DNA of 35,802 nucleotides from NCBI GenBank assembly GCA_937870845.1, contig CALMZR010000286.1, forward strand, positions 1 to 35,802. Reading direction: 5' to 3'. This document shows positions 23,847 to 29,003 of this stretch, one piece after another. Position 1 is the first letter of the stretch. Each line of letters opens with the position of its first letter. A program made the position numbers and the translations under genes. The notes under the pieces are model-generated. The model did no database searches. It was not told the DNA's origin and was given only the letters and a program-made list of their open reading frames with translations. Source of the DNA: an uncultured Chloroflexota bacterium. Lineage in GTDB: Bacteria; Chloroflexota; Chloroflexia; Thermomicrobiales; UBA6265.

Positions 23847-25103
23847 TCAGGCGCAACCGCTGGCAACGGCGACTTCCGCGAGATCCATGGCAACCACCAA
23901 GGCGTCGAAGAGATCCGTGTTCTCGATCGAGCCGGACAGCCGCTCGGCGCCAGGGCCGGCGGCGGTGATCGGCACGGGGGCGGCGGTGTGCCCGGTGGTG
24001 GCCCAGCCGAGGACGAAGCCGTAGCCGGTCCCCGCGACGGGGAACGGGCCGTCTTCACCGGCGAGCATGGTATCGAGGAGGCCACCTCCGGGTTCGTAGG
24101 GGTAAGGTTGATCCAGCGAGCCGGCCACGGCGAGGCCGCCGCACTCGTGGTCGGCCGTGACGACGATCAGGGTGTCGTCTGGGGAGCGGCTGGCGAACGC
24201 GAGCGCGACCTGCACGGCACGATCCAACTCCAGCACGCCCTTGAGGGTCAGCGGGGCGTTGTTCTGATGGGCCATGCGGTCGATGGCCGATTCCTCGACC
24301 ATCAGGAAGAAGCCGTTCGGATTCGAGGCGAGAGTGTCGATGGCGGCGGACGTGAGGTCGGCCAGGGAGACCGGCGGATCGTAGACGGCGCCGAGGCCTT
24401 CCGCAGTCTGGACGAAGAACTCCTGCGCGGCGAACAACCCCAACAGCGGCCCGCCCGGTTCCAAACGGCGGCGGCGCAGGCTCGCTTGAAACGACGCGGC
24501 GTCGCACACGAACTCGTAGCCCAGCTCACGAGCGCGGGCGACGAGGTCGCCGTCTGCGCCGATGCCGCGCCAGTGCGATGCTCCGGCCATCTCGGCAGGC
24601 AGCGCCCTTCCCGTGGGGAACCAATGGGCGCCGCCGCCGCCCAGAATCACGTCGACGCCGACGCGCTCGATGTACTGACGGGCGACTTCGCTCTGGTCGG
24701 CGCGGTGTGGGACGTGGGCGGCGAAAGCGGCCGGGGTGGCGTCGGTGATCTGGCAGGTGCTGATGAGCCCGACCGAGCGGCCCGACGCCTTGGCCAACTC
24801 AAGGATCGTGCGCTGCTGTCGACCATGCGAATCGATGGCGACGCAGCCATTGATCGTCTTGACCCCAGTGGCGATGGCGGTGGCCGCGGCGGCGGAGTCG
24901 GTGACGAACGTCGTCGGATCGACGCACATGGTGTTCATCAGACCGGAGACAGGCAGGCGGTCCATCGCCAGGCGGCCGTCGCGGCCGACAGCGAGCAACT
25001 GGCCGGCGAAGCGGTGGGCTTCGCCCATGCCGTCGCCAATGAGGAGGATCACGTTGCGCGCGATCCGGCGACTTGTCGGTTCGATGTCGATGGCGCTGGT
25101 CAC
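23847..25103 (-). CDS. Alkaline phosphatase (PhoA superfamily)
   Basis: 'NVILLIGDGMG', 'VTDSAAAATAIATGVKT', 'VVTADHECGGLAV', 'TGHTAAPVPI'. Confidence 0.93.
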   Translation of the reverse strand: MTSAIDIEPTSRRIARNVILLIGDGMGEAHRFAGQLLAVGRDGRLAMDRLPVSGLMNTMCVDPTTFVTDSAAAATAIATGVKTINGCVAIDSHGRQQRTILELAKASGRSVGLISTCQITDATPAAFAAHVPHRADQSEVARQYIERVGVDVILGGGGAHWFPTGRALPAEMAGASHWRGIGADGDLVARARELGYEFVCDAASFQASLRRRRLEPGGPLLGLFAAQEFFVQTAEGLGAVYDPPVSLADLTSAAIDTLASNPNGFFLMVEESAIDRMAHQNNAPLTLKGVLELDRAVQVALAFASRSPDDTLIVVTADHECGGLAVAGSLDQPYPYEPGGGLLDTMLAGEDGPFPVAGTGYGFVLGWATTGHTAAPVPITAAGPGAERLSGSIENTDLFDALVVAMDLAEVAVASGCA

Positions 25104-25137: not shown

Positions 25138-25169
25138 TCTGGCCTCGCCGCGGCGCCGGCGAGGCCAGA
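25138..25169. promoter_or_regulatory. 13-bp perfect inverted repeat in the alkaline phosphatase 5' region
   Basis: TCTGGCCTCGCCG (25138-25150) / CGGCGAGGCCAGA (25157-25169), 6-nt spacer. Confidence 0.55.
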
Positions 25170-25363
25170 CCGACACGTCTTACTTTCTGTCGCCAGTATC
25201 GGCGCTGGGCTTGGCGATGTCCACCTTGCGGCCGGCGCGACCGCGTCATCGCCACCCCGCCGCCAGGATATCGCTCCCAGGCGGATCGTTCGCTAAGCCG
25301 TCGTCAACCTCGACGAATCTTCATCGAGCTTGCCTTGCCGGGGGAAGATGGCGTACCGTTGGA

Positions 25364-25388
25364 ATATCCGACTCATTTAGTCGGATAT
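25364..25388. promoter_or_regulatory. Candidate Rrf2/IscR-like operator
   Basis: ATATCCGACTCATTTAGTCGGATAT, perfect 10-bp arms, 5-nt spacer, upstream of the iron-type solute-binding protein. Confidence 0.55.
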
Positions 25389-25505
25389 CGGACGCGGTCG
25401 GCCGGCTTCGAGTCGCCGCAGGGCCGCAAGCGAGAAGCGTTCGTCAGGAGGGGCAGACTCGTGGCAAGCAGGAAATCCGGCGCTGATTTTGTTTCCGGGG
25501 GCGAG

Positions 25506-26609
25506 ATGAGCGAGGTTCGATTTGGCCGGCGGGCGCTGGTCGTGGGCGCTACGGGGGTGCTGGCGATTGGGGTCACGAACCCGCTACGAGCAGCCGCGCA
25601 GCCCGCAACGCCCGTGGCCGACCCGGAACCGGACCCCGAGCCAGACCCGGAGGCCGGGACGGACACCGCGTCTGGAACCGGCGCGTTCACGCTCTATTCG
25701 GGCCGCAATGAGGCGCTGGTCGGGCCACTGCTGGAGCAGTACGCGGCGGAGACGGGCGTCTCGGTCGACACGCGCTTCGGGGGCACCGGCGAGCTGGCGG
25801 CAACCCTGCTGGAAGAAGGCGAGAACTCGCCCGCCAGCGCGTTTCTGGCGCAGGATGCCGGCGCGCTGGGGCTGCTGGCCGACGAAGGTCGGTTCCAACA
25901 GCTTCCCGACGAGATTCTGGAACTGGTCGATCCGCGCTTCCGCGACGCCGAGGGTCGCTGGGTCGGCGTCACCGGCCGGGCCCGGGTGCTGGCCTACAAC
26001 ACCGATGTGCTGGCGGAGGCTGATCTGCCGGCATCGGTGAACGATCTGACCGACCCGGTGTGGGCTGGCCGCATCGGCTGGGCCCCGGAGAACGCGTCGT
26101 TCCAGTCGTTCATCACCGCCTTCCGGTTGCTGGAGGGAGACGACGCGGTGCGGGCGTGGCTCGAGGCCATGATCGCCAACGGGACAGTGAACTTCGGCGA
26201 CAGCAACACATCGATCGTGCAAGCCGTGGGCGCGGGCGAGATCGACGCCGGGTTGGTCAATCACTACTACACTTATGTCGTCGGCCGTGAGGAAGGCGAG
26301 GGCTTCCCCGTGGCGAACCACTTCTTCGTCGAAGGCGATCCGGGGTCGCTCATCAACGTGACCGGCATTGGCATTCTCGAAGGCGCCGAGAACACGGATG
26401 CGGCGCTGGCGTTCACGGCATATCTGCTCTCTCCGGCGGCGCAGGAGTACTTCGCGACCGAGACGTTCGAGTACCCCCTGGCGGAGGGCATCGAGGCGTC
26501 CCAGGGCTTGGTTCCCCTGAGCGAGATCGGCCACCCTGAAATTGACCTCGGCGATCTCGCCGATCTGCGCGGGACTCTCGATCTGCTGGCGGAAGTCGGT
26601 CTCCTGTAG
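25506..26609 (+). CDS. Extracellular solute-binding protein, Fe(3+) ABC type
   Basis: Twin-Arg-like 'FGRRALVVGATGVLAIG' leader, 'FTLYSGRNEALVGPLLEQYAAETGVSVDTRFGGTGELAATLLEEG', 'LVNHYYTYV'. The 23988 ORF start is an artefact. Confidence 0.88.
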   Translation: MSEVRFGRRALVVGATGVLAIGVTNPLRAAAQPATPVADPEPDPEPDPEAGTDTASGTGAFTLYSGRNEALVGPLLEQYAAETGVSVDTRFGGTGELAATLLEEGENSPASAFLAQDAGALGLLADEGRFQQLPDEILELVDPRFRDAEGRWVGVTGRARVLAYNTDVLAEADLPASVNDLTDPVWAGRIGWAPENASFQSFITAFRLLEGDDAVRAWLEAMIANGTVNFGDSNTSIVQAVGAGEIDAGLVNHYYTYVVGREEGEGFPVANHFFVEGDPGSLINVTGIGILEGAENTDAALAFTAYLLSPAAQEYFATETFEYPLAEGIEASQGLVPLSEIGHPEIDLGDLADLRGTLDLLAEVGLL

Positions 26610-26664: not shown

Positions 26665-27477
26665 ATGCCGGGCATGATCAAGCGCTGGCTGCGGCGCCGC
26701 CTCGAGGGCCGCGAGGCCGAGGAGGAAGCCGAACCGGAAATCGAGAGCCGGGAGCGCGGCGCGCTCGTGCGCAAGGGGCGGCTGGTGACGCTGCGGGCGC
26801 ACGTCCCCGGCAATCGCGAGTCGTTCCAGCGGTGGTATGCGGATCCGGAGATCGCCGGACTTCTTCGCCACGATCTGGAGCCGCTCACCTCCTGGCAGTC
26901 ACGCGGCTATTTCGACTCGTTCATCCTCCCCTCTTCCGCGCGCGGAACCTGCTTTGCCATCCACGAACGCAAGACGAAACGGCTGATCGGCACGACCGCG
27001 TTGACCGACCGCGTCGGCAGCGGCGACGGCGTTTCGGCGCTCTTTCGCATCGTCATCGGCGAGAAGGACGTCTGGGGAAAAGGCTATGGCACCGAGGCGA
27101 CGAGGCTCATGGTGGAAGAGGCGTTCGACGCCATGGGGCTGAGCGCCGTGCGGCTGGAGGTCTTTCGCCACAATACGCGGGCGATCGCGGCGTACAAGCG
27201 GGTCGGGTTCGAAGTCACCGGGGAACACACGGAGTGGGTGGCGCGCAAGAAGACCGAACTGCGGGTGATGGAGATGCGCCTCACCCGCGAAGCGTACTAC
27301 GCGACGGCTGATGTCGTGGGGCGGCCTGCCGCACACCGGGATGGGCCAATGCGGGAGGAGCGCCGGGAACGCCGAAAGGCGCGCGAGTCGGCGCGGGCGA
27401 AGAGGCGCGATAAGCGGACGGATCGTGCCGGCGAGGCAACGGATGGGGCAGCCGGAGCGCGCGCGGCCACGGATTGA
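26665..27477 (+). CDS. GNAT family N-acetyltransferase (RimJ/RimL-like)
   Basis: 'VTLRAHVPGNRESFQRWYADPEI', 'KGYGTEATRLMVEEAFDAMGLSAVRLEVFRHNTRAIAAYKRVGF'; Arg/Lys-rich C-terminal tail. Confidence 0.88.
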   Translation: MPGMIKRWLRRRLEGREAEEEAEPEIESRERGALVRKGRLVTLRAHVPGNRESFQRWYADPEIAGLLRHDLEPLTSWQSRGYFDSFILPSSARGTCFAIHERKTKRLIGTTALTDRVGSGDGVSALFRIVIGEKDVWGKGYGTEATRLMVEEAFDAMGLSAVRLEVFRHNTRAIAAYKRVGFEVTGEHTEWVARKKTELRVMEMRLTREAYYATADVVGRPAAHRDGPMREERRERRKARESARAKRRDKRTDRAGEATDGAAGARAATD

Positions 27478-27737: not shown

Positions 27738-27788
27738 TCGTTCGGAGGGCCGACTGTCATACGGCGATGGCTTGGTTTCACGGCATTG

Positions 27789-27813
27789 AACCCGGCGAGT
27801 GGCTCGCCGGGTT
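27789..27813 (+). terminator. Terminator-like hairpin / possible attenuator
   Basis: AACCCGGCGAG-TGG-CTCGCCGGGTT, perfect 11-bp stem; weak T-tract. Confidence 0.55.
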
Positions 27814-27842
27814 TGCTGTATCCGGTTCCGGAGGAATCGGCG

Positions 27843-29003
27843 ATGAGCTGGAATGTTCCAATCAGCGGGTTCTTTCGCGCCGCCGCTCATTTGCTTGTCG
27901 CCGTTGCACTTCTTTTCCCTGCCGCCAATGCAGAAGTCGGCTTTGCAAAGCAGGGATCAACCGAAGCCGGCTCCGCCATTCGCATCGTTCACGGCGTCGC
28001 CAACGCGGGACCGCTCGACGTCTACGTCGATGGCGCGATCGCGCTGATTGGGATCACGTTCGGTGAGACGAGTGCGGACCTGGCGGTCGAAGCAGGCGAT
28101 CACGACTTCGCTGTCGTCCCGACGGGCGCTTCGCTGGATGCAGCCATCGCCGATGGTCTGGTCACCCTGGATCCAGGTACACGCGCTTACGCCGCGCTGT
28201 TGGGAACGGTGGAGGAAGCCAGCGTCGGGTTGTATGCGATCGACGAGCGATCGGTCGATGTGGGCCGCGCTCGTTTTCGCGTTATTAGTGGCGTGCCCGA
28301 TGGCGGGGCAATCACGCCGGCATTCATGAGCGGGGACGCCCTCTCGGAGCCGTTGGAGTTTGGCGATGCCTCGCAGTACGCCGCCATCGACGCCGGCAGC
28401 TACGACCTGGAGATGCTCGACGCGGCGACGGGCGGCTCCCTGCTGTCGCTGCCGCAGACGCCGTTTGCCGAGGGCACGGCGACCGACATCTTCCTGATCG
28501 GGCTGGTGAGCGTCGGCTCGCTGCAGGCGCTGACAGCGTCAAATGCGCTCACCGCCGAATCCATCGATGGGCAGGCAGCACAGGTCGTCTCCGGGTCATG
28601 TGACACACTCGGGCCAGTCGTTGCAGAACTCGGCGCGGTTCAGCCAGGTCAAGGAGCGTCGGTTGGCGTCGAAGATACGCCAGCGGTCGCTCAGGGCTTC
28701 GGCCTGGCGCCGCTAGCATTCACGGCGCTCACGGAAACCCCGCATGCCGTCGCCGTCCTCGATGCCGCGGACGCAGACGGACTCCCGCTCGCGTGCGGGA
28801 CGGTTGGAGGAGCTTTAACCGATACCGGGGCGCTGGTCATCGCCTTGGAGGCCGGCTTCAGGGGCGGCCCTGTCGGCATCGCCGTGCTCGCCCCGTCGCT
28901 CGAGAATCCCGATGCGACGGGAATCTCGATCTTTTTGACGGCGTTCGCGGCCGACGACGCGGGCAACGAGCCTGAGCCAGTCAGCGAGGAGGACGCTGAC
29001 TGA
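27843..29003 (+). CDS. DUF4397 domain-containing exported protein
   Basis: 'AIRIVHGVANAGPLDVYVDGAIALIGITFGETSADLAVEAGDHDFAVV' and second 'RFRVISGVPDGG' unit; signal peptide; GGAGG SD. Confidence 0.85.
   Translation: MSWNVPISGFFRAAAHLLVAVALLFPAANAEVGFAKQGSTEAGSAIRIVHGVANAGPLDVYVDGAIALIGITFGETSADLAVEAGDHDFAVVPTGASLDAAIADGLVTLDPGTRAYAALLGTVEEASVGLYAIDERSVDVGRARFRVISGVPDGGAITPAFMSGDALSEPLEFGDASQYAAIDAGSYDLEMLDAATGGSLLSLPQTPFAEGTATDIFLIGLVSVGSLQALTASNALTAESIDGQAAQVVSGSCDTLGPVVAELGAVQPGQGASVGVEDTPAVAQGFGLAPLAFTALTETPHAVAVLDAADADGLPLACGTVGGALTDTGALVIALEAGFRGGPVGIAVLAPSLENPDATGISIFLTAFAADDAGNEPEPVSEEDAD

Follow-up and report, generated by a model that had tools for sequence, protein, structure and literature searches.

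The window, a stretch of 35,802 nucleotides, corresponds to contig C286 of an uncultured bacterium of the order Thermomicrobiales (Chloroflexota), the genome of which has a size of 5.09 Mb and is 92% complete. The region of interest lies between two divergent genes and contains the following features:

23847 to 25103, minus strand: alkaline phosphatase gene, the divergent neighbour (Pfam Alk_phosphatase).
25330 to 25335, plus strand: probable -35 element TTGCCT, with TTGACA at the same position in most orthologous promoters.
25354 to 25359, plus strand: probable -10 element TACCGT, with TACCGT or TAnnnT in relatives (for example at loci L238, L239, L240 and L258).
25364 to 25388, no strand assigned: predicted operator, a 25-bp palindrome of IscR type-1-like sequence, read directly and backed by conservation in orthologs and by further sites in the same genome.
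25506 to 26609, plus strand: gene for a predicted FbpA/FutA-type ferric-iron-binding solute-binding protein (SBP_bac_6/8; ferric iron-binding proteins are the top matches in the PDB).
26665 to 27477, plus strand: GNAT acetyltransferase gene, the conserved next gene (Pfam Acetyltransf_3; the same neighbour is found in five other genomes).

The solute-binding protein is predicted to be an Fe3+-binding protein of the FbpA type. It matches PDB entry 7w3w with E=3.6e-79, further matches are HitA, SfuA and FbpA, and its NHYYTY motif aligns with the NNYY motif (paired tyrosines) of solved Fe3+-binding proteins. The ATG at 25506 is separated from the palindrome by 117 nt; translation might instead begin at a GTG in the same frame, at 25461, which is preceded by a strong AGGAGGGG. 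The acetyltransferase gene is possibly co-transcribed with the gene for the binding protein, and in several relatives both it and a gene for a DUF4397 protein (27786 to 29003 in the window) follow the latter. For the alkaline phosphatase gene, there is no evidence of control by the operator. Two other palindromes occur in the neighbourhood, a GC-rich one (TGGCCTCGCCGCGGCGCCGGCGAGGCCA, 25140 to 25167) in the stretch that separates the operator from the alkaline phosphatase start, and a perfect one (AACCCGGCGAGTGGCTCGCCGGGTT, 27789 to 27813) where the DUF4397 reading frame begins.

Read directly, positions 25364 to 25388 are ATATCCGACTCATTTAGTCGGATAT, arranged as ATATCCGACT-CATTT-AGTCGGATAT, with perfect 10-bp arms around a 5-nt spacer. 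The sequence agrees with the published E. coli IscR type-1 consensus ATASYYGACTRWWWYAGTCRRSTAT (PMC6599224) at 22 of the 25 positions, the mismatches being at positions 4, 11 and 22. Both hallmarks of type-1 sites, the ATA and TAT ends and the GACT-N5-AGTC core, are present. The probable -35 and -10 elements are spaced by 18 nt, and the -10 element ends 4 nt 5' of the palindrome, so that the transcription start is expected inside it. A generic promoter scan did not report this promoter. Its elements were assigned by visual comparison of aligned sequences, in which most of the promoters of relatives have TTGACA, a spacer of 17 to 18 nt, and a TAnnnT that ends 0 to 7 nt 5' of the palindrome. The placement suggests that the site is in a repressor position. 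An earlier, sequence-only reading of the window had described much of this arrangement, and it stands up well. The palindrome with its 10-bp arms is real and correctly placed, a recount of the matches to the consensus gives the same figure, and the consensus used there is the published one. The TTGCCT-N18-TACCGT promoter is present as described, with TTGACA and TAnnnT as the corresponding elements of relatives, and the idea that the position is suited to repression gains from the finding that a conserved promoter is followed by the operator within a few nucleotides. The distance to the ATG, given as about 118 nt, is 117 nt, and the Fe(3+)-type solute-binding protein can now be specified as FbpA-type.

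Palindromicity by itself is not beyond chance, as Markov-shuffled windows contain a mean of about 1.3 palindromes of such quality. The site can nevertheless be distinguished from a chance palindrome, which is ruled out by the conservation of the specific sequence and not by the symmetry of the arms. Of the 61 genomes searched, 41 contain an ortholog of the iron-binding protein, and 30 loci, from three families of the Thermomicrobiales, were fetched. Lack of conservation in relatives had been named in the sequence-only reading as an argument against a regulatory site. The palindrome is kept upstream of all 30 fetched orthologs, 29 times at no more than 500 nt from the homologous region, and in genome G014 at 187 nt 5' of the ORF, outside the 500-nt window scan. 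The first matrix predates knowledge of the ortholog sites, yet found them; the second had these sites in its training set and is therefore only descriptive for them. A search with the pattern ATATCCGACT-N5-AGTCGGATAT, allowing up to 3 mismatches, identified 39 sites, distributed over 19 of the 32 genomes that belong to the same family, and none with the reversed pattern as control. With a wider pattern, again without hits for the reversed control, 5 to 24 copies were counted per scanned genome, with 5 each for the own genome and G002, 15 for G008 and 24 for G024. In the same-family scan, three low-scoring matches (L046, L058 and L062) lie between convergent genes or distant from iron genes, and may be due to chance.

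The family consensus is AWWYCCGAYY-N5-RRTCGGRWWT, with GA(C/T)Y-N5-RRTC kept throughout. The flanks vary in matched pairs, namely ATATCC/GGATAT and AATTCC/GGAATT in family f1, and AATCCC/GGGATT in family f3. Covariation of the arms between lineages could be expected of a palindrome that acts in the RNA, as a leader hairpin, attenuator or stabiliser, and the transcript can indeed form a 10-bp hairpin at this place. However, at least one true RNA arm mismatch is present in 27 of 35 sites, with the protein-type half-site kept, and the folding of the leader is ordinary (z = -1.19). Moreover, no terminator was found, and in some genes the site is directly at the -10 element. On the strength of the arm mismatches and the folding score, the RNA hairpin was rejected, and we regard a function in the RNA as extremely improbable.

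Of the five sites in the own genome, one is 5' of the gene for the binding protein in the window, and the others are 5' of genes on four other contigs:

Contig C344: ABC transporter operon of the siderophore type (Peripla_BP_2/FecCD).
Contig C353: heavy-metal P-type ATPase gene.
Contig C361: gene for a BFN-domain protein.
Contig C338 (L386, 7904 to 9577): unlinked gene for a two-domain permease of the iron ABC type, with the operator 48 nt upstream.

The nearest PDB entry to the C338 permease is 9j4r, 'Iron ABC transporter permease' (E=1.3e-96), and it is plausible that this protein is the membrane partner of the otherwise orphan binding protein of the window. In relatives, a first scan detected sites at siderophore-type binding proteins; 17 such proteins encoded near sites group in one cluster. 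The targets as a whole comprise Peripla_BP_2 siderophore-type solute-binding proteins, a FecCD operon, EfeU/FTR1, siderophore-interacting proteins and P1B ATPases. Also among them are DUF59 Fe-S assembly proteins, imelysin, Fe/Mn superoxide dismutase, NuoG, nitroreductases and DUF3386 proteins. The site also precedes suf, rrf2-suf and rrf2-iscS operons in relatives, the rrf2-iscS operons with the site being found in f3, and fur-suf operons with the site in f1 to f3. The genome scan that the sequence-only reading had proposed as a check has thus turned up sites in front of iron-uptake, suf, rrf2-suf and rrf2-iscS genes. The gene for the BFN (bifunctional nuclease) domain protein bears the operator recurrently, in three genera (L376, 809 to 1501; L050; L366). 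Sites in G006, G011 and G030 had been considered as Zur/znu sites, but the ABC gene beside the regulator gene is sufC in this Fur subfamily, as part of a suf operon.

Members of the Fur family are encoded in all genomes examined, and members of the DtxR and Rrf2 families in most. When the motif was sought at regulator genes with a matrix derived from the sites of binding-protein genes, sites of at least 12 bits were found upstream of 11 of the 21 genes for suf-linked Fur proteins (at best 28.9 bits, in G011) and 4 of the 25 genes for IscR-like Rrf2 proteins, and upstream of none of the 31 other fur, 23 other rrf2 and 26 dtxR genes. A DtxR-family regulator was rejected for this reason, despite its wide distribution. 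In f1 to f3, the suf-linked fur gene is conserved, with sufC and sufB following in a fur-sufC-sufB operon, and the gene for the IscR-like protein adjoins that for an iscS-type desulfurase. Iron regulation usually falls to Fur proteins. A candidate for binding the operator is the PerR/Fur-like protein whose gene opens the suf operon (fur-sufCB...); it would then combine suf autoregulation with repression of iron uptake.

The tie between the suf-linked Fur and the IscR-like Rrf2 proteins is broken by families outside f1 to f3. In f8, the matches of an unbiased scan (L008 and L009; G068 and G074) are directly 5' of an IscR-like rrf2-sufC operon, and this is also true for G063. The best Fur matches in f8 are only 32-38% identical, in contrast to 64-74% for the suf-linked Fur orthologs in f1 to f3, and f8 genomes that keep the motif lack an ortholog of the suf-linked Fur. 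For a wider test, 603 kb around 80 IscR-like rrf2 genes from Thermomicrobiales, other Chloroflexota (Ktedonobacterales among them) and Clostridia were scanned with a matrix for which the training set consisted solely of sites 5' of genes for binding proteins. This test is independent of both matrices described above. As many as 65 of the 67 matches are within 220 nt upstream of rrf2, and a match is present at 42 of the 45 rrf2 loci from outside the Thermomicrobiales. Column-permuted matrices gave no matches over the same 603 kb, except for one of 20, which gave 2. Accordingly, Ktedonobacterales and Clostridia also have the motif 5' of genes for IscR-like proteins. Fur boxes are A/T-rich 7-1-7 repeats. 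The operator is instead of the IscR type, with a GACT-N5-AGTC core and CCGACT arms; it does not contain an A/T-rich 7-1-7 repeat, and the motif is not accompanied by a Fur partner wherever it occurs. The site upstream of the suf-linked fur gene can be accounted for if this gene is a target of the IscR-like protein. Taken together, control by the suf-linked Fur appears improbable. At the head of the suf operon, the position of the PerR/Fur-like gene in f1 to f3 (contig C191 in the own genome; L142, 36 to 2819) is occupied in f8 by an IscR-like rrf2 gene, which amounts to a regulator swap. The rrf2-suf operator in f8 (L008, L009 and L206) contains a GGAGG that resembles the rrf2 ribosome-binding site, and the two elements may overlap.

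The own genome, in which the sequence-only reading had made its proposal conditional on an Rrf2 regulator, encodes three Rrf2 proteins, one of them (contig C213) a three-cysteine IscR-like protein beside iscS. Its Rrf2 domain (PF02082) scores 128 bits, and the YLEQL recognition helix, E43 and R59 are present. In the alignment, Y41, E43, R59 and the three cysteines are invariant, also in E. coli IscR, the sequence of which was matched to 4HF1. The invariant cysteines C92, C102 and C108 are spaced C-x9-C-x5-C rather than C-x5-C-x5-C. The fourth ligand, His107, is absent at the aligned position, with Arg in f1 to f3 and Gln in f8 instead. The score of 95.8 bits with the curated IscR model TIGR02010 does not pass the cut-off of 207.55, and the protein also fails the CymR, RirA and NsrR models. 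The nearest solved relative, aligned over the whole domain, is PDB entry 4CIC (E=6.4e-39), which we take to be Thermincola potens IscR. In view of the score far below the curated cut-off and the missing His ligand, we call the protein IscR-like and not IscR; on present evidence, it probably works like IscR, with a class assignment as IscR-like only.

The protein scores higher with the CymR than with the IscR model, albeit below both cut-offs, and with two further Rrf2 proteins in the genome, the operator might belong to another paralog, CymR-like or cysteine-free, that senses a signal other than Fe-S clusters, for example cysteine. However, other rrf2 genes never have the site upstream (0 of 23), the three cysteines are invariant, and the targets are iron and Fe-S genes and not genes of sulfur assimilation. 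In G024, which is 98% complete and has 24 sites, the three-cysteine IscR-like protein is the only Rrf2 protein over the cut-off. We therefore consider it very improbable that such a paralog is the cognate regulator. In four motif-bearing genomes of 65-75% completeness (G011, G013, G018 and G030), no Rrf2 protein over the cut-off was found.

The palindrome is thus very probably a transcriptional operator for the IscR-like protein of contig C213. Of the original proposal of an Rrf2-type Fe-S or iron sensor, the association of the motif with rrf2 genes and the iron and Fe-S targets are borne out, at the level of sequence comparison. A site at the regulator's own operon is not, because neither rrf2-iscS nor suf carries one in this genome, and the link to the regulator is therefore made by comparison with other genomes. 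With iron and Fe-S clusters in ample supply, a cluster-loaded homodimer would occupy the operator, over the transcription start and behind the -10 element, and would block RNA polymerase. Under iron shortage, or on damage to clusters, the dimer would lose its cluster and repression would be relieved, so that the ferric-iron-binding protein, the other importers and the Fe-S assembly genes with the site would be made together. Binding by the C213 protein, the type of cluster, the direction of the response and its trigger are inferred.

Throughout the Thermomicrobiales, the conserved site marks iron-uptake and Fe-S cluster genes, and the protein that docks to it is most likely an IscR-like Fe-S sensor. 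A more far-reaching scenario, for and against which the balance is about even, is that the main repressor of iron uptake in this order is IscR-like and not Fur, and that one member of the Fur family has turned into a target within suf. The operator would then derive from an ancestral autoregulated rrf2-suf or rrf2-iscS switch, common to Chloroflexota and Clostridia, and would have spread onto importers, to reach up to about 24 sites per genome. The analysis provides a concrete and testable iron and Fe-S regulon for one order of Chloroflexota. It also flags the genes for the BFN-domain protein, DUF3386 proteins and P1B ATPases as candidate iron-stress genes. A search of a collection of open-access papers retrieved none that joins Rrf2 with Thermomicrobi*, or IscR with Chloroflexi and iron uptake.

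There are precedents for Rrf2 proteins that control iron uptake broadly. Rhodobacter sphaeroides IscR is a broad repressor of iron uptake that also controls Fe-S genes (PMC4618611), and RirA plays such a role for iron uptake in Rhizobiales (PMC6748827). Both systems are from Alphaproteobacteria, and differ from the one described here in the 19-bp Iron-Rhodo-box and the single Cys ligand of the former, and in the IRO box of the latter. T. potens IscR, cited in PMC9338935, differs in that the set of iron-import sites described here is from another phylum. There is close similarity to the type-1 sites of E. coli and Pseudomonas aeruginosa IscR (PMC6599224), with which the palindrome shares the 25-bp frame, the ATA...TAT ends and GACT-N5-AGTC in register, as well as repressing sites near -35, -10 and +1 and Fe-S assembly targets. 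In contrast to these, the Chloroflexota sites follow the family consensus and are mostly at iron importers, and the regulator lacks the His ligand and is under the IscR model cut-off. Myxococcus xanthus RisR recognizes a GAC-N7-GTC core with the same spacing and AT-rich flanks at isc and suf promoters. It differs in the flanking bases, and the accessible part of the report (PMC9973013) mentions no set of iron-import sites. A single operator grammar, GAC-N7-GTC in a 25-bp frame, thus appears to be common to the IscR-like proteins of Chloroflexota and Clostridia and to IscR and RisR of Proteobacteria.
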